54,095 bases of DNA from positions 1 through 54,095 of the forward strand of contig JAKFYD010000023.1 of assembly GCA_021731025.1 (NCBI GenBank), given 5' to 3'. Position numbers and translations under genes: made by a program. The notes below the pieces were generated by a model. It did not search any database. It saw only the letters and a list, made by a program, of their open reading frames with translations, and had not been told where the DNA came from. Positions 2,241-51,787 of the stretch are shown piece by piece. The DNA is from Pseudobdellovibrionaceae bacterium (lineage in GTDB: Bacteria > Bdellovibrionota > Bdellovibrionia > Bdellovibrionales > Bdellovibrionaceae). Every line of letters begins with the position of its first letter. The stretch's first letter is position 1.

Positions 2241-2273
2241 GCCTTAATGTTGGCTTTTCGTATTTAAAAAGTA

Positions 2274-2828: not shown

Positions 2829-2904
2829 GAATTCTCCTAATATAAATTAAAGTTGCGATGATTTAACGAAATTCGGGAATCCAGTCAAAGGGTTAAATGG
2901 CATT

Positions 2905-35483: not shown

Positions 35484-37322
35484 TCAGAATATTGAATTCC
35501 AATGATGCGCGGGTGGTGGAATTGGTAGACACGCAGGTCTCAGAAGCCTGTGGGAGCAATCCTGTGAAGGTTCAAGTCCTTTCCCGCGCACCAGTGTTCT
35601 CGTAACACTACCCTGTCCTCCATTAGGTACAGGTTTTTCCGCTTCCCCTTTCCCTATAACAAATTGAAGTTTATATGTTCCAGTTTCTTGGCAAGGTTCC
35701 GCAATTACCGCATTGAAAAGCTTAGCATACGCTCCTTTGATATGGACTGGGTCTGCTTTTTTGGAAATCAGATTTTGAATTTTTTGAGCTATTTCCAATC
35801 TGTCTTTAAATTGGTCGTAAAAATTATCGGTTACGACAGCCTGTTTTCTTTCCAACGTATCAAATTGCGCTTGAAGTTTCGAAGTCTCTGTATTGATTCT
35901 GTCAACTGAAGTTTCAAATTCTTTTGTATACTGGCCGCGCTTTTCACGAGAACCATCCGCTAATAAGGCTTCAAATCGAAGTTCAGCGCGTTTTTTTTCT
36001 GCCTTAAGTCCTTCAATCATATCCAAGAATCTTTGCTTTTCACTTTTAAGCAAGCTTTGGCGAGTTTCTGACTGGGAATGGCGTTTAACAGCCTTAAGCA
36101 GTTTTTCTGAATCTTTGATTATCTGAACGACAGCTTTTGAAGCTCCAAGCTCGGCTTCATCAGCATCAATACGAAGCTTTTTAGCTTTGCTAAAGTAATA
36201 GTTCTTTCTACCACCGTTACCATTAGCACCGGTCCCATGAAAAGTCGAACCGTCAGGCAACTTAATCAGGCCATGAAGAAGATAAACTTTTTTAAGCTTT
36301 GTATTTTTACGAAGATGCTCTGAATTTCTGGTAATGATAGCTTGCGCTTTATTCCACAAATCTACTGAAATCACCGGTTCATAATCAAGTTCTACGACTT
36401 CATATCGTTCATAAGGCAACAAAAAACGATCATCTTTATTCTTATTTTTATGATTCCGCTCAACTTTTCCAGTTAATTTGAGATTAGTTAAATACTTGTG
36501 CAGCGTTTTCGAATTGAATTCATGACCAAATTTATTTTTAACACCTTTGCCTTTAATTTCCCTCAAAGTTACAGCTTCTGATTCGGTAGAAACGAAAGTT
36601 TCAAAAATCCAGTTGGCAGTTTTTGCTTCCGCAGAATTAATCTGATAGGCACCCGTAACAGGATTTCCATGCTCAATCTTCTGATCAAGACCTAGAATTG
36701 GACGAGTTGAGTTCAACCGTTTCGAGATTGTTAGGCGTGTGTGGTTACTTTCCATTTGTCTTTTTGAAGTGACGGATGATTCCAATGAGGCTGCGCCCGC
36801 AAGTTGATTGAGAATGTGCCTTTGAATTGGATCGCGAGGATTGAGTCTCAATCCACGAACAACGAACTCGCAGTCTCGCTCTACACATCTATCCATAAAT
36901 ATGTGCCAGGTGAGATCATCTCTCGTAATTCTCGACAATTCTTTAGCAATAACAAATTTGTAAAGGCTTCGATCGATTCCATCTTTTAATGCATTAAACT
37001 CTGGCCTTTTATCACTTTTTCCAGTGATACCAGGCTCAATAAAAAACCGAATAATCCGGTAATTGATTTTATTCTCTCTCGATTTTATTTCAGCTTCAGA
37101 GGCCGTGATGTGAACTTGCTGTTCTAGAGAACCTTTTTCTACCATAACTTGCTTATCGGTCGACAACCGCAAGTAAGCGCAACCTTCAATGGTTGGCCAT
37201 GTTGGATCTAAAGGCTTCCACTCGTCAATATGCCTTTCGGCAATCTCTTTACACTCGCTGACGATCTTTGCAATGAGCGCTTTTTTTTCTTCTCTAGTTA
37301 ATTTTTTTTCAATGATCCTCAT
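35484..37322 (-). CDS. Large serine recombinase, 3' end antisense through tRNA-Leu
   Basis: 612 residues. The catalytic resolvase domain has YLRLSTDKQ with nucleophile S54 and R52, GITGKSDKRPEFNAL and ELSRITRDD. A recombinase DNA-binding domain follows (NPVTGAYQINSAEAKTANWIFE). The zinc-ribbon position is present but its cysteines are replaced (LLHGLIKLPDGSTFHG, YYFSKAK), and a coiled coil follows around 430-510. The last 37 or so codons (GKGLEPSQDC to the stop) are antisense to the whole tRNA-Leu(CAG). GGAGG before the ATG gives the start. It should integrate and excise the element whose transfer genes lie at 38-49 kb. Confidence 0.88.
   Translation of the reverse strand: MRIIEKKLTREEKKALIAKIVSECKEIAERHIDEWKPLDPTWPTIEGCAYLRLSTDKQVMVEKGSLEQQVHITASEAEIKSRENKINYRIIRFFIEPGITGKSDKRPEFNALKDGIDRSLYKFVIAKELSRITRDDLTWHIFMDRCVERDCEFVVRGLRLNPRDPIQRHILNQLAGAASLESSVTSKRQMESNHTRLTISKRLNSTRPILGLDQKIEHGNPVTGAYQINSAEAKTANWIFETFVSTESEAVTLREIKGKGVKNKFGHEFNSKTLHKYLTNLKLTGKVERNHKNKNKDDRFLLPYERYEVVELDYEPVISVDLWNKAQAIITRNSEHLRKNTKLKKVYLLHGLIKLPDGSTFHGTGANGNGGRKNYYFSKAKKLRIDADEAELGASKAVVQIIKDSEKLLKAVKRHSQSETRQSLLKSEKQRFLDMIEGLKAEKKRAELRFEALLADGSREKRGQYTKEFETSVDRINTETSKLQAQFDTLERKQAVVTDNFYDQFKDRLEIAQKIQNLISKKADPVHIKGAYAKLFNAVIAEPCQETGTYKLQFVIGKGEAEKPVPNGGQGSVTRTLVRGKGLEPSQDCSHRLLRPACLPIPPPAHHWNSIF
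35507..35593 (+). tRNA. tRNA-Leu(CAG)
   Basis: Acceptor GCGCGGG pairs with CCCGCGC, the anticodon loop is CTCAGAA with anticodon CAG, a long class II variable arm (TGGGAGCAATCCTGTGA) follows, then T-loop GTTCAAG, discriminator A and encoded CCA (35591-35593). The recombinase gene ends on the opposite strand across the full tRNA, and the element begins at its 3' end. Confidence 0.95.
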
Positions 37323-37611
37323 TAAAAACCTCCTGAATTAAATTCCCGTAAACACGGCTAAAATTTTCGATAATTTCCGAATCCAAATCTCCAATAATCT
37401 CATATGAGTTCATGACCAGCGTGTGATTCTTGACTCGCTTTCTTTTTTCTCTTTTATTTTTTTCGTCTCTTTTCTTTTTTTTCTTCGCATTGCTGCATGA
37501 CTTACAAAAAGATTCTTTTCTTTCACCCTTACTATAAAAATCAGAGAGATTTTTTTCGGTACTACAACCAGGGCAAAACTTTAAAGCTAGCGCGCATGCA
37601 TCGTTATTCAA
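37309..37611 (-). CDS. Small zinc-ribbon protein coupled to the recombinase
   Basis: 100 residues, TTG start with GGAG upstream. It begins with two CxxC knuckles (FCPGCSTEKN and SFCKSCSNAKK), followed by a strongly basic stretch (KKKKKRDEKNKREKRKR) and a helical tail. This is a zinc-ribbon, nucleic-acid-binding layout. Its end overlaps the recombinase start by 14 bases, so both are made together. It may be a recombination accessory (directionality) factor; the recombinase itself lacks ribbon cysteines. Confidence 0.7.
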   Translation of the reverse strand: MNNDACALALKFCPGCSTEKNLSDFYSKGERKESFCKSCSNAKKKKKRDEKNKREKRKRVKNHTLVMNSYEIIGDLDSEIIENFSRVYGNLIQEVFNEDH

Positions 37612-37662
37612 AACTTAGCTCCACGATTTGCAGAGTCCAGTGCATATTAAAATTTAAAGAAA

Positions 37663-37690
37663 AAACCTATGTGCAGCTGCACATAGGTTT
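37663..37690. promoter_or_regulatory. 28-bp perfect palindrome between divergent genes
   Basis: Half-site AAACCTATGTGCAG is followed at once by its complement, with no loop. It sits 52 bases from each of the divergent starts (37611 minus, 37743 plus), so it is a good candidate operator controlling the recombinase operon and the small gene on the other strand. No dedicated repressor is identified. Confidence 0.65.
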
Positions 37691-37742
37691 CGAGTGGACA
37701 TAACTAAAAATTGGAGCGTTCCTATTGAGATCGGAGGCCTTA

Positions 37743-38036
37743 ATGAGGACAAAAAAGAAAGTAAATGAGACTATCGACACTTTGGGAACTAAGTGGACAC
37801 TTCCTCCTGGCGCAGAAAATTTTGTTAATGAATGCCAAAATTATATCTGGGAAATTCATATAGAAATCGCAGGATACGCAGCCTTATTTCGAAATCTCAA
37901 CAGTTGCGATTTTAGTGCAAGCGAGCTTTATGGCGTGAGCCTTTTACTCATGAGAATTTCAAAACGTCTTGGAAGAATTCATGAATTTCTTGAGCAAACA
38001 ACTCAAGAAGAATCTTCTCCAAAGAAATCAAACTAG
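37743..38036 (+). CDS. Small protein of unknown function, divergent from recombinase operon
   Basis: 97 residues. The start at 37743 has GGAGG 6 bases upstream; an earlier ATG at 37725 lies before that site. A basic start (MRTKKKVNETIDTLG) is followed by helices (NFVNECQNYIWEIHIEIAGYAALFRN, LYGVSLLLMRISKRLGRIHEFLEQ). No family recognised. It is the only rightward gene in the left part of the element and faces the palindrome, so it may be a regulator. Confidence 0.6.
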   Translation: MRTKKKVNETIDTLGTKWTLPPGAENFVNECQNYIWEIHIEIAGYAALFRNLNSCDFSASELYGVSLLLMRISKRLGRIHEFLEQTTQEESSPKKSN

Positions 38037-38039
38037 TTC

Positions 38040-38417
38040 TTAAATAGTTACTCCATCACTTCCAGGCTCTTCTTGAGGTTCACTTTTTTGTCCAGATTTT
38101 TTAGTTTTAACAACAAGATCTAATGTGGGTTCAGTCTGACCATTTTTTTTCGCCTTCTTTACGTCTCGAAGCAGTTGTCGCAAAAAACTCTCTTCATCAT
38201 AAAATCGCTCGATCAGCGTACTTATATCTTTGCTGCTGAGAATGTCCGGATCTTCGTCAAATCGCCAGTTCAAAAAGTCCTTTCGAGTGATACGAACTCC
38301 TTTCTTTTTGGTCTGAATTTGGTCTATCCAATTTGTGATTTTTTTTGAAGACGTTTCAGAAAGCGCGATATGTTCCACTTGTTTCTTTGCTTTCTGCTCA
38401 GTTAATTCTTCAGACAT
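38040..38417 (-). CDS. Small charged protein of unknown function
   Basis: 125 residues, helical and very charged, with a GVRITRKDFLNWRFDEDPDILSS segment and a lysine-rich tail. The middle (TSSKKITNWIDQIQTKKKGVRI) recalls ribbon-helix-helix accessory proteins of relaxosomes, but I cannot assign it. Its start overlaps the end of the methyltransferase gene by 8 bases, so it is in the same operon. Confidence 0.55.
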   Translation of the reverse strand: MSEELTEQKAKKQVEHIALSETSSKKITNWIDQIQTKKKGVRITRKDFLNWRFDEDPDILSSKDISTLIERFYDEESFLRQLLRDVKKAKKNGQTEPTLDLVVKTKKSGQKSEPQEEPGSDGVTI

Positions 38418-39780
38418 TCTCGACTCCTTTTAGTCTTTGGTTTGCGATTTGGAAATACTCTTCAGACTTTTCGATCCCCAGAAATTGGAATCCCTCAAGG
38501 AGTGCTGCCAAGCCGATGCTGCCGGAGCCCATGAAAGGATCGAGAACACTCCCTGAAGGTGGAGTGACTGTTCGAGCTAGATAGCGCATCAGATTGATTG
38601 GCTTGACCGTTGGATGATGGTTGCCAATTCCGCGCTCGGCAGAAGATGGCTTTTTGCAGTACAGAAATGGCGAATCCATTTCGACGTTGAAGAAATATGT
38701 CGACACGTCCGAGGATTTTCTTCCGCTCTGTCGATTGAGCAGTTTAGAAATTTGCTCGTTCTTGCTCAGCAATACATTCGTGGGAAACCGACCTTTGGGA
38801 TGTTGGATGTACGTTGATGCTTCACTGCGTTTTGCGAAGTCCCACATGGCTGAGTCGCCTCCATTGAATTTCAAATTGGATGTCGATGGAATTTTCTCAC
38901 CTTTAACGGGAGTACGAATGCCGTCGATGTTGATGGCTCCTGTTGAGTATTTCTTCACGTTAGCAGCAATGTTGTGTTCTGAAATTGGCTTTTGAATCAG
39001 AATCCAGTGCTCACTTGCAGGCTTGAGCGCCGTCCCCCAGCCGCGCCATTTCAATGAATCCTTATGAGTTGGTTCCGAAATCTCTCGATCCTGACTCTTG
39101 AAGGTCGCACCGTGAAGACCGCCTGCATCTCGAGTGTAGGCTCCAACGACCTGACGGTCCTTCCAGTTTTCACCCAGCTCATGCGATGGGCGAATAAGCG
39201 GCATCATCCATTCAGGTGGAGCACCAAAGATCGGTTCGAGCTTTTCCCATCGTTCTTTTGTCGGAATGTGCGGTTGCTTGTGGTCAGGTCCAGCTGTCCA
39301 ATGAGATGCTCCGCCTTTTACTCCGGTGATTTCATCAATCTCGCGGTTCGTAATACCGAGTTCGTCTCGGCGAGCACGAATCCATCCCGTAACTTTGTAG
39401 ATGAGATCCGTGTCCACGTATTTTGCGCGATCAAGTGCTTTGTCGATGGCTATATTTTTGGGAAATCCGCTTCCAAAGATATGAACAACGACATCTTTGA
39501 CCAAAAACCCTGAATCCTCGATTGCCATTGCGGTCCAATGAGAAGTTCGCGGCAATGCCCAGACGAATCCATGAGCGCCCGGTTTCAAGGTTCGATAGCA
39601 TTCTTTCATGATGCTTGAGAGCCAGCGAATCCATTGATCACGGCCACCTTTGTCTTTGTCCCAATCAAAACCCAGCAGACCGATTCCTGCTGGCGGGTCC
39701 GTGACGATAGAATCGAATGAATTTTCCGGGAAGGTTTGAAGAACTTCGAGCGAGTCGCCGTTGAAGATATGATGATTCAC
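38410..39780 (-). CDS. Orphan site-specific DNA methyltransferase
   Basis: 456 residues, GTG start with AAAGGG upstream. Motif order is beta-class: catalytic motif IV first (IVTDPPAGIGLLGFDWD, a DPPA variant of DPPY), target region in the middle, and SAM-binding motif I last (HPTVKPINLMRYLART, VLDPFMGSGSIGLAAL, FLGIEKSEEY). A helix-turn-helix-like insert (RDELGITNREIDEITGVKGG) follows motif IV, as in phage and plasmid methyltransferases of this group. No restriction enzyme is adjacent; it likely protects the element from host restriction. Recognition sequence unknown. Confidence 0.88.
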   Translation of the reverse strand: MNHHIFNGDSLEVLQTFPENSFDSIVTDPPAGIGLLGFDWDKDKGGRDQWIRWLSSIMKECYRTLKPGAHGFVWALPRTSHWTAMAIEDSGFLVKDVVVHIFGSGFPKNIAIDKALDRAKYVDTDLIYKVTGWIRARRDELGITNREIDEITGVKGGASHWTAGPDHKQPHIPTKERWEKLEPIFGAPPEWMMPLIRPSHELGENWKDRQVVGAYTRDAGGLHGATFKSQDREISEPTHKDSLKWRGWGTALKPASEHWILIQKPISEHNIAANVKKYSTGAINIDGIRTPVKGEKIPSTSNLKFNGGDSAMWDFAKRSEASTYIQHPKGRFPTNVLLSKNEQISKLLNRQSGRKSSDVSTYFFNVEMDSPFLYCKKPSSAERGIGNHHPTVKPINLMRYLARTVTPPSGSVLDPFMGSGSIGLAALLEGFQFLGIEKSEEYFQIANQRLKGVENV

Positions 39781-39843
39781 GATGAACCCTTTAAAAGAGT
39801 TTTTCGTGTCTCTTGAAAGTGGAAGACTACGGGCTCTTAGCGT

Positions 39844-40242
39844 TTAGTCTTTTGACCAAGACCCGGCATCTTCCAAGATAAAGACCTTGTGTGATTTAAT
39901 AAACTTGTTCCCTTCGATCGTGTCGGGAATGATGACCGATCGAATCTTCGGCTTCGTCAGAAACGGAAATTCATCTTCCACTGACTTCGAAATTGGATTT
40001 AATTTGTCGCTGGTCGATTTCTTTTCTTTTTCTTTGAAAGCAAGATAGCTAATTAAGCCTCCAATGCCTGCGCCGATGACCATTCCAAAACCGCCGCCTC
40101 CTTGCAGATTTTGGTTATTTCCCATCGCGTCCCCAGCAATTCCACCAACTGTCGCGCCCAACATGACTGACTTTCCAACTGTTGAGCAGCCATTCAAGAG
40201 CAACAATAAAGAAAGCAAAGCGGCCTTTATTAGTAAATCCAT
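39844..40242 (-). CDS. Glycine-zipper lipoprotein of the transfer element
   Basis: 132 residues. The lipobox LLLLLNGCS predicts a lipidated Cys; a glycine-zipper (GATVGGIAGDAMG, GGGGFGMVIGAGIGGLISYL) follows and suggests membrane insertion or oligomerisation. It could be the VirB7/TraV-type lipoprotein of the secretion system or an entry-exclusion factor; neither is proven. GGAGATGA lies before the ATG. It sits after a terminator, so it has its own promoter. Confidence 0.65.
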   Translation of the reverse strand: MDLLIKAALLSLLLLLNGCSTVGKSVMLGATVGGIAGDAMGNNQNLQGGGGFGMVIGAGIGGLISYLAFKEKEKKSTSDKLNPISKSVEDEFPFLTKPKIRSVIIPDTIEGNKFIKSHKVFILEDAGSWSKD

Positions 40243-40278
40243 ATATTCATCTCCTTTCTATTTTGTAGTGAGTGACTT

Positions 40279-40304
40279 AAAAACCTTCCCCGTTTCGGGG
40301 GAGG
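40279..40304 (-). terminator. Terminator of the transfer operon
   Basis: Stem CCTTCCCC / GGGGGAGG (8 bp, one G-U) with a 5-base loop, followed on the minus strand by five Ts. It lies downstream of the relaxase gene in transcription direction, and so probably ends the T4SS-coupling protein-relaxase transcript. Confidence 0.75.
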
Positions 40305-40439
40305 CGGTAAAGCGAAGTTGACGACGGAGGCGTAAGCCGAAGGAGGAGACTGAAGCGAAGCCGGTGGGGGCCATGCAGACGTAGGCTGCATGGGGGTCTG
40401 TCAGCGGTTTTAGCGTTTTGATGAAATTTGATAAAAGAC
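40305..40439. other. Structured GC-rich intergenic region, candidate oriT or RNA
   Basis: Between the relaxase gene and its terminator, about 130 bases are richer in G than the surroundings and repeat the word GAAGC/GCGAAG. A perfect 8-bp stem CCATGCAG / CTGCATGG with loop ACGTAGG lies at 40371-40393. Conjugative origins often lie beside the relaxase gene and contain inverted repeats, so it is a candidate oriT, or a structured 3' UTR. Inference only. Confidence 0.35.
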
Positions 40440-41300
40440 TTAATCCAGTAGCTTTTTTGAATTTTCAAGAAGCGCTAAAGCCGCTCCGTAGGAAGGCTCT
40501 GGGAAGGGCCTAGGAAGGGGCGAGTGCAAAAGAATATCTGCCGGAGTTTTGCAAGCAAATTTGCCTGATACGAACGGAGCATACCAGCCGCGAGCTTGGA
40601 AGTCTGAGAGTAATATGAAGTGATGTTTCTGCATTTCGCGCACATTGAAATGCTCGAAAGTTCGCTTGATAGAATTCAAAGTTACTTTCGAATTAACCAA
40701 CCAAATGACTAAGTCGATGGATTGTTGGATATCATAAAAAGCCACAAGTGGTTCGTATCGGTTCTTCGACTTCAACCACAACTCTACTTCGAATGCGACA
40801 ACCAGTTTACGATCGCCGCGAAACAAAAGCGAATAACCGTCAGGCCTATGAGTTGTCGATTTAGGAACCCAGTCATCCCAAAGATCAACAGGAATACGGC
40901 GAAGCTGCTGCTCTGTAAAAGTCTGAGTGTACTCTGGTTGATTCGTGAGCCAGTTGCCCAAGTGCAAGGCTGCGACCAACCGATCATGGTGCGGATATTC
41001 CGACTTGAATCCATCAACGCAGAGTTCTCCAAGAAGGTGTCGAATGACTTTGTAACCTTTTACAGTGAGTGTCCATCCTTGACCAGTAGTGTGATCTGTC
41101 TGAACAAACGTGACATAGCCGAATTGAGCAAGAGCTAAGAGCCTTCGATAGGCAGTATGTACGGAAGCTTTCGGAAAAAATCTTAATCCTACGGCAGCAG
41201 TGGAAACTATTTTCCACTTCCAGAGAAATTTCAAAATCTTAAAGTCGCGATCAGTGACATCCAGTCGATTTAATTTTCGTTTTGTTTTCTCGTCCACCAT
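40440..41300 (-). CDS. MOBC-type relaxase candidate (replication-relaxation family)
   Basis: 286 residues. The N-terminal winged helix (DRDFKILKFLWKWKIVSTAAV, TAYRRLLALAQFGYV) and the following nuclease-like core (HPDGYSLLFRGDRKLVVAFEVELWLKS-type RPDG...ExE pattern) match the replication-relaxation/MobC group, a relaxase class with a PD-(D/E)xK-like fold known from plasmid CloDF13. It would nick the element at oriT and start DNA transfer. The FtsK-like coupling protein is encoded just upstream, as expected for such a pair. Confidence 0.7.
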   Translation of the reverse strand: MVDEKTKRKLNRLDVTDRDFKILKFLWKWKIVSTAAVGLRFFPKASVHTAYRRLLALAQFGYVTFVQTDHTTGQGWTLTVKGYKVIRHLLGELCVDGFKSEYPHHDRLVAALHLGNWLTNQPEYTQTFTEQQLRRIPVDLWDDWVPKSTTHRPDGYSLLFRGDRKLVVAFEVELWLKSKNRYEPLVAFYDIQQSIDLVIWLVNSKVTLNSIKRTFEHFNVREMQKHHFILLSDFQARGWYAPFVSGKFACKTPADILLHSPLPRPFPEPSYGAALALLENSKKLLD

Positions 41301-41326
41301 TTAAAACCTTTCAAACTAATCTGCAG

Positions 41327-42787
41327 CTAGTCTTTTTGAACTCTATAATCTTCTTTAGTTTTCGGGATGACCTTCGAGCTTTCCAGTTCACCGACGATTT
41401 CAACAACAGGTTTAACTTTTTCGATATAGTCTGGCGGCCCAAGTAAGATCTCAGCTTCCTCTGCATCCAAAAATGGAGTTTGAACTTCAAGCATATCCAT
41501 TCCGTTTTTCCAGATTGCACGGCCCGGTACTCGCGGAAGATCTGACGCCCTTCCGTTACCGAGAACAGAAATACTGGAGGCATCGTTCATCATTTGAAAG
41601 CAGATGACACCAGTGAGATTAGCTTTAACTTGTGAATCAAGCGCTCGAGTATCTGGACGCTGAGTCGCAACAACCAGATGAACACCAACAGCACGGCCCA
41701 ACCGAGCGACGCGGCTCAAAATACCACGAGCTGCTTGGATTTCCTTTGAGTTCGCGTGATTCCCCGCAAGAAACATCTCCGCAGCTTCATCAACTACAAT
41801 GACATGTCGGTTCAGTGAAGTCCGTCCCGGTAGATTTTTCTTCGTCAAGTAGGCATCAATGTCTTTGCAGTTATGTGTCTTGAGCAAAGTCATTCGTTCA
41901 TCAAGAACGAAACTCACGAGCTTAAGTTCCTCAATTGCTGCGACAACATTAGGAACTACACGGAATTGCCGTCTATTTTCGAAAAGCGAAAACTCAAGAC
42001 CACCTTTCAAGTCGATCAGCAGAAATTTGGTCGCCTTTTGATGAAGATGCATATGCACAATCAACTGACGAAGAAAGGTCGACTTACCACCTCCGGTTTG
42101 ACCGGCGATCAAAAGATGAGGTGTTTGCTTGAATGTGCCAATGAGCTGATGAGCCCGAGTTCGACCGACAAGAAAGCCAAATGAAGGAGTTTTTTGTTCG
42201 GAGTTGTAGACAACATTATCTGCCATCGGTATATGGGAATAGATGAAGTCAACTGCGCGAAGTTCTCGATCTTCTTTGATGACATCAACGTAGATTCCAA
42301 GTTCTGACTCTAAGTACTTTTTCTGCTCATTGAATTTAGAGAGCGGAAAGCCAGCATTCGTGACTCGCAGTTTTCGATTTGTCGAATCAATGGGAAAATC
42401 AGAGATGAGATTCGGTAATCGGCCAATCTTTGATTCAAGTCCAGCGTTTTTGAATGCGGCAGTTAGAGTTGCAAGCTTTTCTCTTTTCTTCTTTACTTGC
42501 AACCAAGCCCAAACCCAAAAACCAAGAGTCGAAAATGAAAAGGCATACAGCCGATACAAAGGTTGATAGTAAGGGTACAGCGCATTTAGCCCCGTCTTAG
42601 AAAGCAAGTAATGATCAATTTTAAAAGTCAGCAGCGCTGTCGCAAAAAGCATCCAGCCAGCGCAATAATGCCAAGGAATGGTTTGAGATTGAAACCCGTG
42701 AATCAATTCTCCAACGGGACTCAAAAGCAAACGAAAATTACGAATAGCTCTATTGAGCCGATCAAATTGAGGAGTCTGTTTGTTCAT
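41327..42787 (-). CDS. FtsK/HerA-type conjugation coupling protein (T4CP)
   Basis: 486 residues. Two N-terminal membrane segments (WMLFATALLTFKIDHYLL, YAFSFSTLGFWVWAWL) anchor a cytoplasmic ATPase with Walker A AGQTGGGKSTFLRQL, LLIDLKGG, Walker B VIVVDEAAEMF, and ARLGRAVGVHLVVATQRP, the FtsK/SpoIIIE-type motor pattern also seen in TcpA coupling proteins. It should link the relaxase-DNA complex to the secretion channel. The ATG at 42787 has GAGG at the right distance; a GTG at 42799 is in frame. Confidence 0.88.
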   Translation of the reverse strand: MNKQTPQFDRLNRAIRNFRLLLSPVGELIHGFQSQTIPWHYCAGWMLFATALLTFKIDHYLLSKTGLNALYPYYQPLYRLYAFSFSTLGFWVWAWLQVKKKREKLATLTAAFKNAGLESKIGRLPNLISDFPIDSTNRKLRVTNAGFPLSKFNEQKKYLESELGIYVDVIKEDRELRAVDFIYSHIPMADNVVYNSEQKTPSFGFLVGRTRAHQLIGTFKQTPHLLIAGQTGGGKSTFLRQLIVHMHLHQKATKFLLIDLKGGLEFSLFENRRQFRVVPNVVAAIEELKLVSFVLDERMTLLKTHNCKDIDAYLTKKNLPGRTSLNRHVIVVDEAAEMFLAGNHANSKEIQAARGILSRVARLGRAVGVHLVVATQRPDTRALDSQVKANLTGVICFQMMNDASSISVLGNGRASDLPRVPGRAIWKNGMDMLEVQTPFLDAEEAEILLGPPDYIEKVKPVVEIVGELESSKVIPKTKEDYRVQKD

Positions 42788-42833
42788 AACAAACCTCACT
42801 AGAATTTCTTTTGTGTCTTGGTGAATGTCGTGA

Positions 42834-43718
42834 CTACTGAGCCGTCTCGAAGATGATCAGGATTTCTTCTCCGGCAGGAATTGAAATTGGTGCTGGTTGG
42901 TTTCTCAGGTTGGACATCTGGTCGTTCGCCATTTCAACAGCAGCTCGGCTTGCACCATTCAGAAGTGCATTTTTAGGATCCGAATTTGTTACAACCTGTT
43001 GTCCGATAATTGTTCGTTCTTGCATACCTTCAGTCATTCCACCGGCAAAGTAGAGACCGACAGCCGTGCCATACCTCAGTGCATATCGCTTGAACTTTGA
43101 ACCTGGTAGACCAGCAGTTTTATCTTCCGTATCAACAGCTTGTCCTTGAACAGCTTTGACCGATCCCTCTTTGTGGACGACATGAGTGAACCGAATAAAA
43201 AGTCGGTCTTCAGTGGATTGCCCATGACCCACAACTGTTTCACCGGCCTTCAAGTAGTTTTCTCCTTGAACTCGAAGAGATTCTAACAGTACAGCACGAA
43301 CAAGACCGTTGGATGCTCCAGTCAATAGTTTCGCACGCACTTCACTCCCAGGTGGAATCTGACTGGCTCGAGTTCGGTCTATCTTCTGAAGCCCAGGCAA
43401 TTTCACGACGATTCGCTTTAAAGACTTCCGGTTCCTCTCGGTTATCCGATCTTTTTCGGCTTGAGCGGAATACGTTTCGAAGGAAACAGCTTGCTGGGCT
43501 CCGACCTGAGATGTCTCCGGAGCATCTACACCCGAAGAAGAGGTCTCGGGCTTTTCTGGCGCACGCATCCACATGATAGAGCCAAGACAAAGAACCGCTC
43601 CAATCATCAAAATCTTAACTGTTTGCTTGGGAAGACCTTTTTCTTTACTCTGAAAGCCAAAGCGACTTTCAATTTTTGGCTCTGATGTGATTTCAACCGA
43701 CTTATTTTCGTCGCCCAT
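42834..43718 (-). CDS. VirB10/TrbI-like T4SS core protein
   Basis: 294 residues. One membrane segment near residue 35-52 (ILMIGAVLCLGSIMWM), a proline/serine-rich linker, then a beta-rich periplasmic domain: IPPGSEVRAKLLTGA, GHGQSTEDRLFIRFTHV, a glycine/alanine-rich antenna-like region (LRYGTAVGLYFAGGMTEGM), and IPAGEEILIIFE at the end. These are VirB10/TraB/TrbI features: the protein spans from inner to outer membrane. It overlaps the VirB9-like gene by 17 bases. Confidence 0.82.
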   Translation of the reverse strand: MGDENKSVEITSEPKIESRFGFQSKEKGLPKQTVKILMIGAVLCLGSIMWMRAPEKPETSSSGVDAPETSQVGAQQAVSFETYSAQAEKDRITERNRKSLKRIVVKLPGLQKIDRTRASQIPPGSEVRAKLLTGASNGLVRAVLLESLRVQGENYLKAGETVVGHGQSTEDRLFIRFTHVVHKEGSVKAVQGQAVDTEDKTAGLPGSKFKRYALRYGTAVGLYFAGGMTEGMQERTIIGQQVVTNSDPKNALLNGASRAAVEMANDQMSNLRNQPAPISIPAGEEILIIFETAQ

Positions 43719-44079
43719 TTTTCGACTCCGGTTTTATTCGATCTGTTTCGCAGTCTTTAATGAAATACAGGCCAGCACCTGCTGGCGATGTCACAAGATC
43801 CAAAACAAATCGTCGACCTTGAAGATAAACGAACAGATTGGATCTCGCATTCACCGTGGCCGGAGAAATAGTCAGATCATTTTTGATGTACGCAATTCCG
43901 AAAGTGCTTCGAGTTCCAAGAACTACTTTTTCTGGCTCCATCGGAAACTCAAGTGCCGTTCCCCTTGTCGAGATGGAGACCGTAGCAACATTGTTCTCGC
44001 AAAGTTTAATCGTTTTTCCGACTTCTGCTCGAACTACTGGGGCAAAAGAGAGAAACAGCAGAATCAAATTTGTCATCAT
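43702..44079 (-). CDS. VirB9/TraK-like T4SS outer-membrane complex protein
   Basis: 125 residues with a signal peptide (MMTNLILLFLSFAPVVRA). The beta-strand segments ALEFPMEPEKVVLG, FGIAYIKNDLTISP and NLFVYLQGRRFVLDL match the N-terminal domain of VirB9/TraK, which builds the outer-membrane ring with VirB10 and VirB7. The protein is shorter than VirB9 (about 250-290) and lacks the C-terminal domain, an IncF-TraK-like or reduced version. Overlaps the VirB8-like gene by 4 bases. Confidence 0.7.
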   Translation of the reverse strand: MMTNLILLFLSFAPVVRAEVGKTIKLCENNVATVSISTRGTALEFPMEPEKVVLGTRSTFGIAYIKNDLTISPATVNARSNLFVYLQGRRFVLDLVTSPAGAGLYFIKDCETDRIKPESKNGRRK

Positions 44080-44615
44080 TCTTTTTTCTCCTTCTCTACA
44101 ATCTGAGCGATTGAGCCAATGATCAGTCCATAGGGATTGGACTCAGTTCGATTCGTTTGCAGAATGGTCACTTTAAGATTTAAAGGAAGAACTGACTTCA
44201 CTTTGCCAATCGAGATCAGGCGATCTGTGAAGACCTGCACCTCATCGCCACTGACTTTCACTTCGGTGATCAAAACCCGCTGCAACATTTGCCGCTGCTT
44301 GAGCGTTGCCATTTCCTTTTCGCGCAAGAGGGTTTCCTCAATAGCGAGAAATCCGTCCTTCAGATTCTGATCTGAGTTAAAGCGCAGCGGAATGGCTTCC
44401 TTCAGAAAAGACGAAATTTCGTCTTCAGTCGGCTTAGAATTTTTCAATGGTAGTGCTTTCGAAAAGCAGGTCCGCTCAATTACAAGGGGATCCTTCATCG
44501 AAAGACCCGCTATGACGGAAAGCTGAAACAAGCAAACAAAGGCAAGAAGAGCCGCCGCCGTTTTAAGCGTGACATTTTGGGCGGCTGTTTTTGCCCACGC
44601 AGTTGAAAATCGCAT
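44076..44615 (-). CDS. VirB8/TraE-like T4SS protein
   Basis: 179 residues. One N-terminal membrane helix (AAALLAFVCLFQLSVIAG) and a periplasmic domain with RVLITEVKVSGDEVQVFTDR and LNLKVTILQTNRTESNPYGL, including the NPYG motif characteristic of VirB8/TraE. It bridges the inner-membrane complex and the outer ring. AAGGAA precedes the ATG. Confidence 0.8.
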   Translation of the reverse strand: MRFSTAWAKTAAQNVTLKTAAALLAFVCLFQLSVIAGLSMKDPLVIERTCFSKALPLKNSKPTEDEISSFLKEAIPLRFNSDQNLKDGFLAIEETLLREKEMATLKQRQMLQRVLITEVKVSGDEVQVFTDRLISIGKVKSVLPLNLKVTILQTNRTESNPYGLIIGSIAQIVEKEKKE

Positions 44616-44618
44616 TTA

Positions 44619-45596
44619 TTATTCCTTTTTCTTGGAATCCGAGTCTCGTTTAGGAAATTGAATAACATTAATAGGTAAAGACGCAGACGATGGGCTTGAG
44701 AAAGTCTTCCGGATCTGAGAGCTCGCGCTCTTAGTGGTGTTCCAAGATTTTGAGATCCCTCTACCTGTGGTCTTCAATGCCCAACCACCAGTTTTCGCCG
44801 TCACCATTTTCGTTTTAGCAGCGACAACCGCTGGAGAAAGAAATCCGGCTGACAATCCCATAGCTGCAAGCCCTGCTGTTTGACCTGCAATTCCCGAAAG
44901 AGCTCCAGAAATTAAATTTTTGACCACCATTGGTGTCAGAAGAATTGAAAGCGCCAACATTAAAGTCAGAGCTAGCAGTGATATGAAATTTCCCTGACCA
45001 GGATTTTTAAAATTATTGAGGGCTGTACTCCATAACAGAGTTCCTAAGACAGACCAAACAATCTTCCAGCTTGCGATCTCAAAAAGAGTTCTAAAAAGGC
45101 CAGCCGTCATGCCAGCCGTTGCTGGGAGAATATAGAAGGTAATCATCAACGGCGAAAAAATGTAGAGCAAAACAAGGCAATAAACGATGGCAGCATCAAA
45201 GAAGAACACTGTCAGATAGAGAATACCATAGACCGCATACGATACGACAGAAAGCAGTGTATCGCCAACAGATGTCCACGACCACGAATGCTCTTTTAGC
45301 GCGGCCCCCGCACTTTCGAGCAAGTGATGAAAGCTATTGAGATCTCCAACCTTATCGGCCACGGCATCTGCGACGGCTGCGACCATATTTGAGATTTCAG
45401 GATAAGCTGCCAGAAGAATTGCGGCGATAAGCGTTCGGCCAACAAGCTGTGGAAATCCTAAAGATCCACCAATCGGCATTTTGAAATACTCGAGCAGTAC
45501 ACCGATCAGAAGTAGAATCGTTGAAAGCGTATAGAAAACTGAAACGAAGAATGTATGCAGCGTTTTTGCTTCTGCCGAAATGAATCCAATATCCAT
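44619..45596 (-). CDS. VirB6/TrbL-like polytopic T4SS protein
   Basis: 325 residues with at least six membrane segments (for example LSTILLLIGVLLEYF, VFFFDAAIVYCLVLLYIF, LTLMLALSILLTPMVV) and a basic, serine-rich C-terminal tail. The size, topology and place between VirB5-like and VirB8-like genes mark it as the inner-membrane channel component. Its ATG overlaps the previous stop (TAATG). Confidence 0.8.
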   Translation of the reverse strand: MDIGFISAEAKTLHTFFVSVFYTLSTILLLIGVLLEYFKMPIGGSLGFPQLVGRTLIAAILLAAYPEISNMVAAVADAVADKVGDLNSFHHLLESAGAALKEHSWSWTSVGDTLLSVVSYAVYGILYLTVFFFDAAIVYCLVLLYIFSPLMITFYILPATAGMTAGLFRTLFEIASWKIVWSVLGTLLWSTALNNFKNPGQGNFISLLALTLMLALSILLTPMVVKNLISGALSGIAGQTAGLAAMGLSAGFLSPAVVAAKTKMVTAKTGGWALKTTGRGISKSWNTTKSASSQIRKTFSSPSSASLPINVIQFPKRDSDSKKKE

Positions 45597-46282
45597 TATT
45601 CAAACCTTGGAAGTTGAAACTTCGGCGATTGCGATGCCAGTGCCGCGTTAAGTTTGTCGGCGCTATCCACCATTTGACGTGTGCGTTCTTTATCTTTTCG
45701 ATTTTGAACCATCATGCTTTGAGCTTGAAGTTTTAGACCTGTCGCCTGGGTTCGAAGCATTTCGTTTTGGAGATTCAACATCACACCCAATGACTGCGCT
45801 GTTAATTTGCTAGCGCCTCCGGGTGATACACGATGACTTTCGTCTTTGATCATTTCACCGATCTCATCAATCGTCTTCGTGTACTTGTAGATTGAGTTAT
45901 TGAGGGCGATCGCCTCGGCAGCAGTTTGATCGGTATCTCTTTGCGCTTTTGAATCCTGCGATTCCACAACAATACCGTAGACGGACTCGATTTGAGCCAA
46001 GGCATCCGTTACTTTTTGCCAGTCGCGATAGAGACCTGGATCAGTATTAGGACTGATGGTGCGAATCAGGCTTAGAGAGTCATTGATGCCGTGATTGATG
46101 TCTCGAATTAGGTTAAGACTATCCTGGCCGTTTTGAAGAATACTTCGAAGCTGCGCCAACTGCTGAAGCGCATTCGCAAGGATTTGCATCAGTACAGCCA
46201 CGTCACCGCCAAAAATATCCGCTCTCGCGGGCTGAGCGAAGAAGAGAGATAATGAAAGGACCAATGCCATTAGCTTTTTCAT
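45596..46282 (-). CDS. VirB5/TrbJ-like T4SS protein
   Basis: 228 residues with a signal peptide (MKKLMALVLSLSLFFAQPARA) and long helices with many Gln/Asn (LQQLAQLRSILQNGQDSLN, LNLQNEMLRTQATGLKLQAQ), typical of VirB5/TrbJ minor pilus-tip proteins. AAGGAGC precedes the ATG. VirB6 follows with a 1-base overlap. Confidence 0.78.
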   Translation of the reverse strand: MKKLMALVLSLSLFFAQPARADIFGGDVAVLMQILANALQQLAQLRSILQNGQDSLNLIRDINHGINDSLSLIRTISPNTDPGLYRDWQKVTDALAQIESVYGIVVESQDSKAQRDTDQTAAEAIALNNSIYKYTKTIDEIGEMIKDESHRVSPGGASKLTAQSLGVMLNLQNEMLRTQATGLKLQAQSMMVQNRKDKERTRQMVDSADKLNAALASQSPKFQLPRFE

Positions 46283-46296
46283 ATTGCTCCTTACTT

Positions 46297-48702
46297 TTAG
46301 GCAGCGATTCCATTTGGGTATTTCTGCGAGAGCAGAGTTAAAATCTCAAACTGTGAAAGCTCGGGGTTTTCTTTTTTGGCTGCTTCAATGGCCGATAAAT
46401 CTCTGGGATCCGTTGTTGCGATCCACAACTCAAGCGGAGTCGATTCAATCACCGCAACAGTTCTTCGCTCTTGGCTTAGAACTAAAAACGCCTCTGAAAA
46501 TTTGCCTTTGTTCTGACGAAGCGAGCTGATCAAGGCGACTTCGTTATCGTTTAGGCCCAACGCTTCTTTCATCTTCGTGAAGTCGCTCTGGTTTTGCATA
46601 AGAACCCATTTGATTGAACAGTTGGGAAGCAGCGCCGACGAAATCCCAGAGTTCAAAAAATCATCCAGCGCTTGGCTTATGGCGATCGCCGAACAAAAAT
46701 ACTTTCTCACTGTTCTAAAAATTTCCTCTATAAACGAGGCACCAAGACCGGTTTTATCTTTCAATAAACGCCAGCACTCGTCGAAAATTATAAACTTCAT
46801 TCTTGAGCGATCACGTTGCACTTCACGCCACACAAGATCGGCAATGATGTAGAGGCAAACAGCCTGAAGGTCAGGATAGGTTTCGAGTCCCTTAAGATCG
46901 AAGGTTACAATGTCCCTTTGAAATTCAATGGTTGTCGGTCGATCAAGAAATTTTCCATAAGGCGTGCTTCCACACCAAGGACCAAGAATCTTTCCGTAAT
47001 TTTTGATTTCGCTTTCCGGGTGTTGAAGAAGAAGTTCCCTTAAATCTGAGAGTCTCGGCGTTGCCGAAGTTTCATAGACTTTTTGAATGGCCGCTTCGAT
47101 TTCAGCACGGGCCAGCTTCGGAATCCGGGTATCACTATCTTCTTTGGTCATAAGCTCAACGAGGCCTACGATGAATTTGATTTTATGAGATGAGGGCTTC
47201 GTCTCGCCCGGCGCTAAGTCGAACGGATTAACCGAAAGAGAGTCATTCACTCCTAGTTCGACGTACTGGCCCGACAAGTTTTCGGTGAGTTTCTTGTAGG
47301 AGCCACCAATGTCAATGAAGAAGACTTTTGGATCTTCCTTTAGCATTTGGAGAAGCAAAATGTTGGTTAGATAAGATTTTCCGGCACCAGATCCACCGCT
47401 GATAAGCTGATTTCCGTTCGTTAGCGAAACATCAAACGGCGAAAAACTAAAAAGACTTCCTTGTCGCGACCGTAGCAGAATGCTTGGGTTATCGTGACCT
47501 GGCCAAGGTCCATACAAGGGAACAAGATCACACAAGTTGGCGGTCTTGATCTTCTTAAGCCGCTCCTTGCAACGAGAATTTGGCAATGCCGTCTGGCTGA
47601 AAATATCAAACGCAGCCAGAGTCTCGACCATGGCTTCAGCTCCGCTTATCTCGCGAAACTTCGAAAGTGTGATGTCGACCTGATTTTCTAGATCTTCCTC
47701 ATTTTCACTTTGAAGAAGAACTGAGATTGAAACGTGAAAGACTTTTTGACCCTGAGCGATCATCTGCTCAAGCAGCGTCTCGAGGTCTTGCAGCTTTGCC
47801 GTACTCTCGATGTCAGAAACTCCTGTTCGTTTTCCAACGGCCATTGAAAACGCAATTCGCCGCTGAGTTTGCAGCGTTTCGATTTCCTTCATCTGTTCAG
47901 GAACGTGGACCGTAACGAACAGCTTCGACTTAAAAGGAAATTCTCGGAGGCTTGCAGCCATACAAGCATAGGTTTGGTCAGGTAAAGTTTTAAGGGACAG
48001 AACTCGAAAGTGAGTTGTTCCAATCACGAAACCCTTGAGGGTCACTCCGACATCGGAATACAGAAGGCTTTGCCGAACTTCTTCAGGATCGTAACTTTGA
48101 AACGGAACTCGTCGTGACGGATTCCACTGATGGTAGAGAGCCTTCGCAACTTGATCCGAGGTCATTGGGCTCACGCGAATATCAAGCACTGAGAGTCCTT
48201 GAGCGATATTTTCTCGAAGCCGCTCTGTAAGCTGAATTTCACGTTCGAGACGCTCTTCTGAAATTGTTGAAAACTGCTTCTCTTTAGAAAAGAGTTTAGG
48301 TTTATCCAGCAATACTTGTGAAAAAGGCCTGCGCACAAAAACCTTCAGACCATGATATGGAAGATGCCCAGATCCATCTTCAGCCATGAGTCTTTCAACC
48401 CTCGCAGAACAAAGCGCTTTTGCGATTGGATTTTTTGAGCCATCGCCAAGACGATGATGGTTTTTAATGACAGTGTAGTTGCCGGAATCAATTTCTTGGA
48501 CGAACTGAATGTCGATCTTGTCAGGCAAGCTGTTGAAAAACTGGCCCACTCGCTCCGAATAGGAATTGATGCGATCATCGCTCCAACAGTTCAAGTCGAC
48601 CGGCACGCACTCAAGTCCGAACCCCAGCGAACCATCAGAGAAGATGATCATGTCGCCTTCAAATCCCCAAATTTGTAACTGATCTGCTAGTGCGTGATTC
48701 AT
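46297..48702 (-). CDS. VirB4/TraC-like T4SS ATPase
   Basis: 801 residues, the main secretion ATPase. Walker A is GGSGAGKSYLTNILLLQM, Walker B MKFIIFDECWRLL, and the ATPase tail has FRTVRKYFCSAIAISQALDDF and LRQNKGKFSEAFLVL. Length and the N-terminal TraC-like region match. It overlaps the VirB3-like gene by 4 bases. No separate VirB11 ATPase is visible, as in F-type systems. Confidence 0.92.
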   Translation of the reverse strand: MNHALADQLQIWGFEGDMIIFSDGSLGFGLECVPVDLNCWSDDRINSYSERVGQFFNSLPDKIDIQFVQEIDSGNYTVIKNHHRLGDGSKNPIAKALCSARVERLMAEDGSGHLPYHGLKVFVRRPFSQVLLDKPKLFSKEKQFSTISEERLEREIQLTERLRENIAQGLSVLDIRVSPMTSDQVAKALYHQWNPSRRVPFQSYDPEEVRQSLLYSDVGVTLKGFVIGTTHFRVLSLKTLPDQTYACMAASLREFPFKSKLFVTVHVPEQMKEIETLQTQRRIAFSMAVGKRTGVSDIESTAKLQDLETLLEQMIAQGQKVFHVSISVLLQSENEEDLENQVDITLSKFREISGAEAMVETLAAFDIFSQTALPNSRCKERLKKIKTANLCDLVPLYGPWPGHDNPSILLRSRQGSLFSFSPFDVSLTNGNQLISGGSGAGKSYLTNILLLQMLKEDPKVFFIDIGGSYKKLTENLSGQYVELGVNDSLSVNPFDLAPGETKPSSHKIKFIVGLVELMTKEDSDTRIPKLARAEIEAAIQKVYETSATPRLSDLRELLLQHPESEIKNYGKILGPWCGSTPYGKFLDRPTTIEFQRDIVTFDLKGLETYPDLQAVCLYIIADLVWREVQRDRSRMKFIIFDECWRLLKDKTGLGASFIEEIFRTVRKYFCSAIAISQALDDFLNSGISSALLPNCSIKWVLMQNQSDFTKMKEALGLNDNEVALISSLRQNKGKFSEAFLVLSQERRTVAVIESTPLELWIATTDPRDLSAIEAAKKENPELSQFEILTLLSQKYPNGIAA

Positions 48703-49016
48703 AAAGACTTCTTTCGTCGCGGAGGTGCGACATCATTGGTTGGCGATTGAAAAGCGGAAAAGTATTTTGGTCGCAGGTGAAATTTGGCGAGATGCACGAG
48801 GTAGTTGTCGGGTTTCCCGCGCTTACCAATTCTAAGAACAAGCGCGATGACAATAACTGGCAGCCAAACAAGCAGAAGCTTCTGGTTGGTTTGCCCGAAC
48901 AAGAAATTCAGAATTGAAAGTAGCAGGAAAATCGCGAGAACATCAGGAACTTCATATCCAAAAATCAGAAGTTTCTTTTCCAAACTTTGACTGGTTGGTT
49001 CAGATTTGAGTGGCAT
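48699..49016 (-). CDS. VirB3/TraL-like T4SS protein
   Basis: 105 residues from the ATG at 49016. Two adjacent membrane helices (VPDVLAIFLLLSILNFLFG, LLLVWLPVIVIALVLRI) followed by a short basic cytoplasmic tail (GKRGKPDNYLVHLAKFHLRP) match VirB3/TraL, which attaches to VirB4. It sits between the pilin and VirB4 genes as usual. Confidence 0.75.
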   Translation of the reverse strand: MPLKSEPTSQSLEKKLLIFGYEVPDVLAIFLLLSILNFLFGQTNQKLLLVWLPVIVIALVLRIGKRGKPDNYLVHLAKFHLRPKYFSAFQSPTNDVAPPRRKKSL

Positions 49017-49065
49017 CGTCACATCCAACGGAAGTGATGACGTGTCTTATGAAAAGAGCGATCCT

Positions 49066-49350
49066 CTAATTTACGAGGCCGCGGATGAATGCAACTATAC
49101 TGGATGAACCGAATCCGATACATGCCCCGATGATCGCGAGCCACAAGTGGCTGCGCGCATTCGGGTTTCCGGTAAAAAAACTGAATGCTGAAAAGATCAA
49201 TCCCAACACCGCTGCTAAAGGCAAAATGACGTTCATTAACTTAGATTGAATCGCACCAAGTGTGGATTCAACACTGCAATAGCCCACGGCTGGGACCAAC
49301 AGCATTGAAATGAGAAAAACAGAAAACATCGCCGTCTTTGACAACTTCAT
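49066..49350 (-). CDS. VirB2/TrbC-like prepilin
   Basis: 94 residues: a signal sequence (SKTAMFSVFLISMLLVPAVG) and two hydrophobic helices (LPLAAVLGLIFSAFSFFTG, LWLAIIGACIGFGSSSIVAF) with a short polar loop, the layout of VirB2/TrbC major pilins. AAGGAAG precedes the ATG. It is the first gene of the transfer operon. Confidence 0.8.
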   Translation of the reverse strand: MKLSKTAMFSVFLISMLLVPAVGYCSVESTLGAIQSKLMNVILPLAAVLGLIFSAFSFFTGNPNARSHLWLAIIGACIGFGSSSIVAFIRGLVN

Positions 49351-49481
49351 AGAGTACTTCCTTTCGAAATAGTTTTGAGGGTCTTAATAAAGCGAAATTT
49401 TGCCGCGCATAGGTCTGTGTGCATGGGCAGTTGATCGCTTGGTAGTCTTTCGACTAAAATTGTATAGAGCGAGGGGCTAGT

Positions 49482-50132
49482 ATGATAAGTGATGATGAGT
49501 GGAATCGAAATTTCCGAAATTCGATGAAAAATAAACGGCCTAAGACGACGGACGAAGAACTTGATCTATTAGGTTCGAGTTCGTCATATTGGGAATCTGA
49601 AAATTATCGTTCAGCTGCAGCTTGGTGTGCGACTTCGTGGGATCTAATCGCGGATTCGACCCAATCATCGAATTCAATCATCTTTGTGAATCTTCATGGC
49701 CTATTAGATGAGATACCGAAGTTTCTAAAAGATAAGGCGAAGATATTCTCAAGGTTCGACATTACGGACGATGACGCCGCAAATGCTTTCATTGCGACAA
49801 GTACCGATGATATAATTAAAAATCGCTTTCAGTTACTGTGGGATTCGAACCGAACTTCTGCAAAAATTCGAGAGCTGTGTTCTGATGATGACTTGTTCGT
49901 ACTTGGCTTTCTTAGACATCGTTACAGTCACCCAATTTTAAGTGGTTATTCTGTTAAAATCGAAGGTCCTCTGGGCGACAGTAAATTCAAAGTTGCGAAT
50001 TGGAAAAAATTGAAAAATCTCGGTTCCAACACAAAAGAAGAAGAATTTAAATTAAGGATGATTAAGAAATTACTGCCAGTTAAACCAGATATCAAAACTC
50101 TGGTTCTTCAGTTGCAGAAGCTGGCAAATTAA
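49482..50132 (+). CDS. Unknown protein with HEPN-like RxxxxH motif
   Basis: 216 residues, soluble, divergent from the transfer operon. A conserved-looking helix LGFLRHRYSHPIL contains R-x4-H, the catalytic signature of HEPN RNases, and an N-terminal helical segment NYRSAAAWCATSWDLIADS would fit the HEPN fold. No nucleotidyltransferase or antitoxin partner is adjacent. GAGGGG precedes the ATG. Assignment is tentative; it may be defence or stabilisation cargo. Confidence 0.5.
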   Translation: MISDDEWNRNFRNSMKNKRPKTTDEELDLLGSSSSYWESENYRSAAAWCATSWDLIADSTQSSNSIIFVNLHGLLDEIPKFLKDKAKIFSRFDITDDDAANAFIATSTDDIIKNRFQLLWDSNRTSAKIRELCSDDDLFVLGFLRHRYSHPILSGYSVKIEGPLGDSKFKVANWKKLKNLGSNTKEEEFKLRMIKKLLPVKPDIKTLVLQLQKLAN

Positions 50133-50143
50133 TTTTGAAGCAC

Positions 50144-50479
50144 TCATTCAATTTTCTGCGTTGGGCGAGCAATTCCGTTTAATGCTAAAACAGCTTTGCA
50201 TTCGTCTTCACCCCATCCCCAAGATGAAAGTGGATCCACCACAATCCTCTCAAGTTGGTCCATGTTCAGATGAGGGTGGATAGAAACAATCGGCTGGCGT
50301 TTTTCTTTAAGCCATTTATTCACAACCGTAATGTAGTCCAGTGTTTTACAGTCTAGTTCGCCAGTATAGGCGATAACTCCGATTGGAATTTGTTTCTGTA
50401 CCAATCCAACCAAAATTGCCGTATCACGAAGATCAGCTTGATAAAGCACCGTTACTGGCGCATGTGTTTTCACGCTCAC
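50144..50479 (-). CDS. Cargo protein of unknown function
   Basis: 111 residues. It reads VTVLYQADLRDTAILVGLVQKQ, then PIGVIAYTGELDCKTLDYIT and RQPIVSIHPHLN. This recalls the N-type ATP-pyrophosphatase/PAPS-reductase fold, where a PP-loop would sit at the first strand, but the SGGxDS loop is not present. Its GTG start overlaps the stop of the next gene upstream (TAGTG). Convergent with 49482-50132. Confidence 0.55.
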   Translation of the reverse strand: MSVKTHAPVTVLYQADLRDTAILVGLVQKQIPIGVIAYTGELDCKTLDYITVVNKWLKEKRQPIVSIHPHLNMDQLERIVVDPLSSWGWGEDECKAVLALNGIARPTQKIE

Positions 50480-50874
50480 TACGCCACCCCACCGTCAGCG
50501 CCGAACAGGCTGTCGAAAGTCACCTTGTCTGGAAATAAGCTCATGAATACGCGCTGGCGCGGAAATGTGAACTGGATTTCCAGATGTTGCTTCAGATCTT
50601 TCGATACGAAACCAAAACCCACTGGACGGCGGAATGTCGGATCAACTTCTTCACCAATTTTCTTCGCGAATAGCGTGAAGCTTCCATCGTCGTTCTTGTT
50701 GGGGCATAAAAAGAAAACCTCTTTAGGGAAAGCCCACATCTTGATGACGTAGTACGATCGCTTAGAACCTTCTACTCCGTAGGCTTCGCCAGCTTGGAGC
50801 TCGTTCAAAATTTTTCCGCCTTCTCGGTATCCAGTATAAATATGAAATCGCGCATTGATTTGCGATTTGTTCAT
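50479..50874 (-). CDS. Cargo protein of unknown function, coupled to 50144-50479
   Basis: 131 residues, beta-rich, soluble. It contains ARFHIYTGYREGGKILNEL, KMWAFPKEVFFLCPNKNDDG and PVGFGFVSKDLKQHLEIQF. No family recognised. AAAAGGGGG precedes the ATG. Coupled by a 1-base overlap to the downstream gene, so the two products probably act together. Confidence 0.6.
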   Translation of the reverse strand: MNKSQINARFHIYTGYREGGKILNELQAGEAYGVEGSKRSYYVIKMWAFPKEVFFLCPNKNDDGSFTLFAKKIGEEVDPTFRRPVGFGFVSKDLKQHLEIQFTFPRQRVFMSLFPDKVTFDSLFGADGGVA

Positions 50875-50917
50875 CTTGTCCCCCTTTTGCTGTTAGACAT
50901 CGAAAATAAAGCGGCTC

Positions 50918-51016
50918 TTAATAGATTCGATAGTTAAAAGCCTTGGCCTTTGCTTCGTACAAAAATCTCTCGGCCCGGTCGGCTTTCGCACTGTCTTCGC
51001 GCATGAAAACCATCAT
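50918..51016 (-). CDS. Possible 32-residue ORF
   Basis: The C-terminal 32 codons of a longer shadow frame read FMREDSAKADRAERFLYEAK, a plausible basic helix. It starts just after the upstream gene ends (overlap region 51016-51033 is none), but no good ribosome-binding site is visible. It could be a tiny protein or the frameshifted tail of the upstream gene. Confidence 0.25.
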   Translation of the reverse strand: MMVFMREDSAKADRAERFLYEAKAKAFNYRIY

Positions 51017-51032
51017 ACGAAAGATTGCAGTC

Positions 51033-51326: not shown

Positions 51327-51340
51327 CATTCACCTCCGTT

Positions 51341-51607: not shown

Positions 51608-51787
51608 TCTTTTGCCCCCTAATTGATTGGCCGTCATTTGTAGCGACTCACAAAAAGGTTAAATAGACAAATTTCATGCCAAGCAGTTTGTTAATCCCAC
51701 TTGAAATATCCTACATATTTGATTTTATTTATTTAAATGATCAATTTTGGTTTTAACTGGACACTAAAAAAAATGATTTTACCACCG

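Follow-up and report, generated by a model that had tools for sequence, protein, structure and literature searches.

Serine recombinases of Bdellovibrionota whose genes appear to be split by their own integration into tRNA and tmRNA genes

Introduction

The window analysed here, a stretch of 54,095 nucleotides from a Pseudobdellovibrionaceae bacterium, contains a serine recombinase gene whose reading frame runs on through a tRNA gene of the opposite strand. This locus raises the question of what happens to the recombinase when its element integrates. The answer that we consider very probable is that attP lies inside the recombinase gene, that integration exchanges a C-terminal domain of about 150 residues for a tail derived from the tRNA, and that the loss of this domain would make integration self-limiting.

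Results and discussion

The recombinase gene and its target

The recombinase is encoded by an ORF of 612 amino acids at 35484-37322 on the minus strand. Pfam identified a Resolvase domain (PF00239) at residues 49-191 (E 4e-15) and a Recombinase domain (PF07508) at residues 231-333 (E 4e-13); only serine recombinase domains were found, and no tyrosine recombinase catalytic domain. The Zinc beta ribbon (PF13408), which is present in unsplit relatives, gave no Pfam match in this protein. The ssrA integrases of DsiB type are marked by homology to CcrB and by a small partner recombinase, DsiA; here the match to CcrB was weak (38 bits, with a cut-off of 900), and no DsiA-like gene was seen adjoining the recombinase. 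The features of the overlap are as follows.

35595..37322, minus strand: element-encoded part of the recombinase gene, residues 1-576, with the catalytic and recombinase domains and a coiled-coil-like region (ORF, Pfam)
35588..35594, minus strand: predicted attL core CTGGTGC (GCACCAG on the plus strand), the tRNA 3' end plus one base; codons 577-578 (CTG GTG)
35484..35587, minus strand: 3' part of the ORF contributed by the host, residues 579-612 (34 residues), from antisense tRNA-Leu and about 20 bases of flank, with the stop codon
35507..35593, plus strand: tRNA-Leu(CAG), the integration target (ARAGORN)

The whole tRNA gene thus lies on the opposite strand within the ORF's 3' end. An earlier note on this DNA had claimed that the frame crosses the entire tRNA-Leu(CAG) in antisense, and on this the ORF and ARAGORN coordinates agree. 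The same note had attributed about the last 37 residues to the target; the tRNA-derived tail is real, but it counts 34 residues. The position of the predicted core is consistent with the cores of other elements. In another genome (L006, contig C203 of G021, 1567-3084) a distinct serine recombinase that carries a zinc-ribbon-like CGECG motif also lies at this tRNA-Leu(CAG), next to RlmM, and its stop codon falls inside the tRNA.

A lone overlap of this kind proves little, because chance alone leaves about 30-50% of the antisense frames of tRNAs open: among 80 tRNAs, 25, 25 and 41 were fully open in the three respective frames.

Where the frames of related recombinases stop

Among 369 Bdellovibrionota genomes, 62 contain a relative of the window recombinase at E 1e-20 or better, and the 3' ends of nearly all loci from these 62 genomes were inspected. 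Relative to the adjoining called tRNA or tmRNA gene, the recombinase stop codon lies inside it in 40 of 57 cases, beyond it in 17 and before it in none. Unlike the single overlap, this pattern across relatives exceeds chance. The earlier note had proposed to record whether the 3' ends of such recombinases lie in tRNA-Leu; all 57 end inside or beyond a tRNA or tmRNA gene, and the targets are broader, including the tRNAs for Leu, Asn, Asp, His, Glu, Gln, Arg, Ala, Val, Pro and Met as well as tmRNA. Its statement that large serine recombinases rarely use tRNA genes fails for the Bdellovibrionota, where a tRNA or tmRNA gene is the usual target of this recombinase family.

Between them, different recombinases use all three frames of the tRNA-Asn gene, giving the tails MAQEEGLEPP..., NGSGGGIRTPD... 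and KKWLRWQDSNLRPSD. Since one tRNA is read in three frames, the tail sequence is not selected, and a specific function for the tRNA-derived tail appears unlikely. Many annotated serine recombinases adjoining tRNA genes in Bdellovibrionota would then be truncated forms with nonsense tails, which is relevant to genome mining for integration tools.

The domain at the far end of the elements

At the opposite end of the elements, on the same strand as the recombinase, we found a conserved domain of about 150 residues with two helix-turn-helix (HTH) motifs and no conserved start codon. Far ends that bear a short repeat of the tRNA 3' end carry an ORF for a related protein of this size on the recombinase strand. 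The second half of the domain matches part of the Pfam Recombinase domain and the first half is HTH-like; its profile matches 156 of the 369 genomes.

Recombinases were paired with a far-end domain on the same contig and strand, and the two ends were joined at the short match that scored best close to the tRNA 3' base, with the frame ignored. The shared cores measure 6-17 bp and correspond to the 3' end of the RNA gene. Of the 22 pairs scored automatically, 18 gave a single open frame of 655-735 amino acids (with random frames, P would be about 4e-6). The four failures comprised a wrong pairing with another domain (G019), a wrong core (G086) and two cases with no RNA gene in reach (G122 and G060). 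After correction, 22 of 22 resolvable pairs were in frame, each giving one uninterrupted recombinase of 655-743 amino acids; this count leaves out G122 and G060 and includes G086, whose core was chosen after inspection of the frame. Among the in-frame pairs the distance from core to HTH is nearly constant, at 82-97 nt. An early circle prediction for G171 had contained a stop codon, and with the core TTGGCGT the frame is open over 684 amino acids.

Tandem arrays provide an internal comparison. In G019 and G200 the recombinases are in frame with the domain at their own far end in four of four cases (743, 687, 678 and 718 amino acids) and out of frame with the domain of the neighbouring element in two of two. 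In each of these arrays (contig C13 of G019 and C3 of G200) the tandem elements occupy a single tRNA-Asn, and their recombinases, which belong to different subfamilies, read through the same core in different frames.

Empty sites were found for two elements and confirm the boundaries. In G180 both attL and attR contain CCCCGCCATTTT, and in eight genomes of the genus tRNA-Asp is uninterrupted, with the right flank of G180 after it. The joined site of G173 matches uninterrupted sites in G189, G185, G172 and G169. Synteny gave no empty site for tRNA-Leu(CAG); some relatives keep RlmM and the tRNA in this order, but the downstream genes differ between genera. Sequence comparison shows where attP lies, that the frame is kept, that the gene is split and that empty sites exist.

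The joined ends and the cores bear out the proposal that the crossover lies at the tRNA 3' end and that the integrated and circular forms would differ in their C-terminus, the circular form being a predicted one. The earlier note had pictured two alternative C-terminal tails; the tails do differ, but the circle side is the conserved double-HTH domain of about 150 residues, lost on integration, and not a short tail.

Tandem junctions and unsplit genes apart, the circle forms are predictions. A second recombinase in tandem in the complete genome G181, with the same core (CATCCATTT), reads into an HTH protein of about 185 residues and not into tRNA-Gln. Natural ORFs in which recombinase and domain are unsplit measure 793, 767, 738 and 784 amino acids (G309 and G006). 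The 793-residue one, with the C-terminal domain (L154, contig C277 of G309), stands in a chromosome-like context with no tRNA nearby. Contigs C277, C159 and C42 of G309 were considered as free circles and ruled out, having no terminal repeat.

No plasmid record covered 80% of the window recombinase, and no plasmid or phage record covered 80% of an unsplit form. Viral contigs searched with the domain gave two weak matches. Against contigs of other genomes the window recombinase gave no match, and the domain matched members of the Bdellovibrionota and, weakly, 36 residues of a Bacillus sequence. The sequence search of solved structures returned none for the recombinase at E 1e-5, and a single-sequence structure model of the domain had a pLDDT of 47, too low for it to be used.

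A second, decayed element in the window

The window also holds the remains of another element of the same kind, at a different tRNA-Leu gene.

5045..5128, plus strand: tRNA-Leu(TAG), target of the decayed element (ARAGORN)
5122..5195, minus strand: left end, remnant of the recombinase C-terminus (KGSVVSEVV, preceded by a stop codon) reading into antisense tRNA-Leu(TAG)
11750..12322, minus strand: ORF of 190 amino acids, a recombinase C-terminal remnant (KSVSNGGKGSIISEVV) in frame with the double-HTH domain
about 12198-12212, plus strand: copy of the 15-bp core GTACCACTTCTGATA; second copy at about 5124-5138, at the 3' end of tRNA-Leu(TAG)

The HMM match to the domain within the 190-residue ORF lies at 11756-12193 (E 2e-31), and the junction in this ORF is, judging from its sequence, a preserved attP-like or tandem junction. 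At the tRNA the remnant KGSVVSEVV continues into PETGLEPAH, whereas near 12196 GGKGSIISEVV continues into HQSTCNTVF of the domain. With one end that reads into the tRNA and one junction that reads into the domain, both forms are thus present in one window.

Proposed mechanism and alternatives

In the excised circle the gene would be whole and would encode a large serine recombinase of about 655-745 amino acids, inclusive of the C-terminal domain of about 150 residues. This extra domain would consist of two HTH units, the second of which is related to one half of Pfam's Recombinase domain. When the circle recombines at the 3' end of a tRNA or tmRNA gene, its recombinase gene would be cut at the core. 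The attL side would keep the catalytic part, reading antisense into the RNA gene and ending in a short tail of no fixed sequence, and the attR side would keep the last 150 or so codons, often with no start codon. The full-length enzyme would be the integrating form, and the truncated enzyme is presumably altered in activity; the C-terminal change may plausibly switch the activity or the stability of the recombinase. The loss of a DNA-binding-like domain would make integration self-limiting, and excision would call either for the truncated enzyme plus a partner protein or for another copy that provides the full-length enzyme in trans.

More tentatively, though as a serious possibility, self-splitting serine integrases may be widespread in bacteria, with the crossover itself as the directionality switch. 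The element would be locked until it is released by the full-length enzyme of a tandem or incoming copy, or by the severed domain in trans.

Of the alternatives, the one that survives best supposes that both forms matter, the severed domain being translated at attR through host read-through or from an internal start and influencing the truncated recombinase in trans, for instance by permitting excision. Possible starts exist in some domains, and an artificial fusion of a directionality factor to the C-terminus of a serine integrase changes its direction (PMC5737554). We nevertheless regard this as unlikely, with no start codon conserved and with the sequence upstream of the domain at attR belonging to the host and different for every target.

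It is rather improbable that the overlap is passive, attP having come to lie by chance in a dispensable 3' end whose loss leaves the enzyme unaffected. The integrated tail is indeed free in length and frame, as such a passive overlap would have it, but the elements share a conserved domain (among four copies, 32-47% identity to the first; among 13, invariant residues), and its frame is kept. The conserved domain together with the kept frame therefore argues for selection on the full-length protein.

The domain might also be a separate small gene, a directionality factor or a regulator, placed at the far end, with the recombinase stopping wherever its target allows and no fusion protein ever made. 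Directionality factors in general are commonly small HTH proteins, recombinase and domain lie far apart in integrated elements, and an ATG precedes the HTH in a few domains. Against this, 11 of 22 domains have no ATG, GTG or TTG between core and HTH, so that half would have no start codon; unsplit fusion genes occur; and the frame is kept in all 22 pairs and, in tandem arrays, only with the element's own domain. We consider a separate gene very improbable.

That two short tails alternate and the tRNA-derived one is the active part of a switch, as the earlier note would have it, is hardly credible, for although the tails do differ between forms, this tail occurs in all three frames and in varied length, and the circle-side end is an entire conserved domain.

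Comparison with known systems

Like the integrases of phiC31, Bxb1 and A118 type, the recombinases described here have Resolvase and Recombinase domains, a short core and one integration site. The C-terminus of those large serine integrases survives integration, and a separate directionality factor acts with them.

The closest likeness to a gene split by its own integration is found in the 'suicidal' integrases of SSV type in archaea, to which a 2021 review called the phenomenon exclusive (PMC8371274). Both there and in Bdellovibrionota, attP lies in the integrase gene and the N- and C-terminal parts end up at the two ends of the element. The SSV-type enzymes are tyrosine recombinases with the catalytic domain in the C-terminal fragment, whereas here a bacterial serine recombinase keeps its catalytic part intact and loses an accessory, DNA-binding-like domain. 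A common bacterial serine version would mean that the principle of self-disruption arose again in an unrelated enzyme.

The nearest bacterial precedent is DsiB of the Dehalococcoides ssrA islands. The part of the 2011 account covered here (PMC3146451) describes a serine recombinase encoded next to the tmRNA gene. The 3' end of the recombinase gene overlaps attL in every case and its stop codon is reached only beyond the island; the authors suggest that the enzyme may attain full function only in the circle, or when it lies behind an island in tandem that holds the 3' gene fragment. A 3' end that overlaps attL and a stop codon outside the element are likewise seen in 57 of 57 cases here. In the same part of that account no C-terminal domain was identified and no frame test was made, and a single target (ssrA) in a single genus was concerned. 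In our literature search, mostly outside subscription journals, neither the domain nor a split serine recombinase was found described. The overlap of recombinase and attL was thus already noted for dsiB in 2011, and the self-splitting serine integrase of bacteria is new.

An effect of the domain on direction is plausible because laboratory fusions of integrase and directionality factor, in which a C-terminal addition changes the direction of a serine integrase, behave in this way (PMC5737554). Those fusions are synthetic, whereas the addition described here is natural, present in the circle and lost on integration. As nature would make both versions of the enzyme, the control of serine integrase direction by the C-terminus could be tested directly.

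The element in the window and its probable partner end

The remaining features of the element are listed below.

37309..51637, minus strand: element body, integrative and conjugative element (gene content)
38410-39780: methyltransferase
40440-41300: MobC-like relaxation protein (weak, 29 bits, below cut-off)
41327-42799: FtsK-like ATPase (E 1e-19)
46297-48702: VirB4/TraC (E 3e-82)
within the element body: type IV secretion genes, VirB10-like and VirB9-like (both weak) and TraL-like

By its gene content, with a type IV secretion ATPase and a coupling ATPase, this is an integrative and conjugative element. Among the type IV secretion genes at 40440-49350, an FtsK/EssC-like ATPase was observed as the probable coupling protein. 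The right limit of the element is absent from the window, and the element probably runs past the contig end. No long duplication of the tRNA 3' end was found at a far end within the window, and CCCGCGCACCA occurs once in the genome. The repeat ATTGAATTCCAAT, near 35491 and 51467, was compared by eye as a candidate att repeat and taken as chance.

The genome contains four copies of the domain, one of which, at 79816-80259 of contig C12, lies near the contig end and has the core CTGGTGC. This core, a match of 7 bp only, is in frame in both the window recombinase and the candidate partner end, and joining the two gives a predicted circle form of 724 amino acids. By subfamily and elimination, and with a core of 7 bp, the C12 domain is probably the partner of the window recombinase. 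No overlap was found between the contig ends C25 and C12.

A sigma-54 response regulator, either a host gene or cargo of the element, is encoded at 51907-53442 of the window, near the contig end; the neighbourhood of its homologue in the same genus is not shared. On C12, a small resolvase-type recombinase (L156, contig coordinates 80321-81124) follows right after the severed HTH domain.
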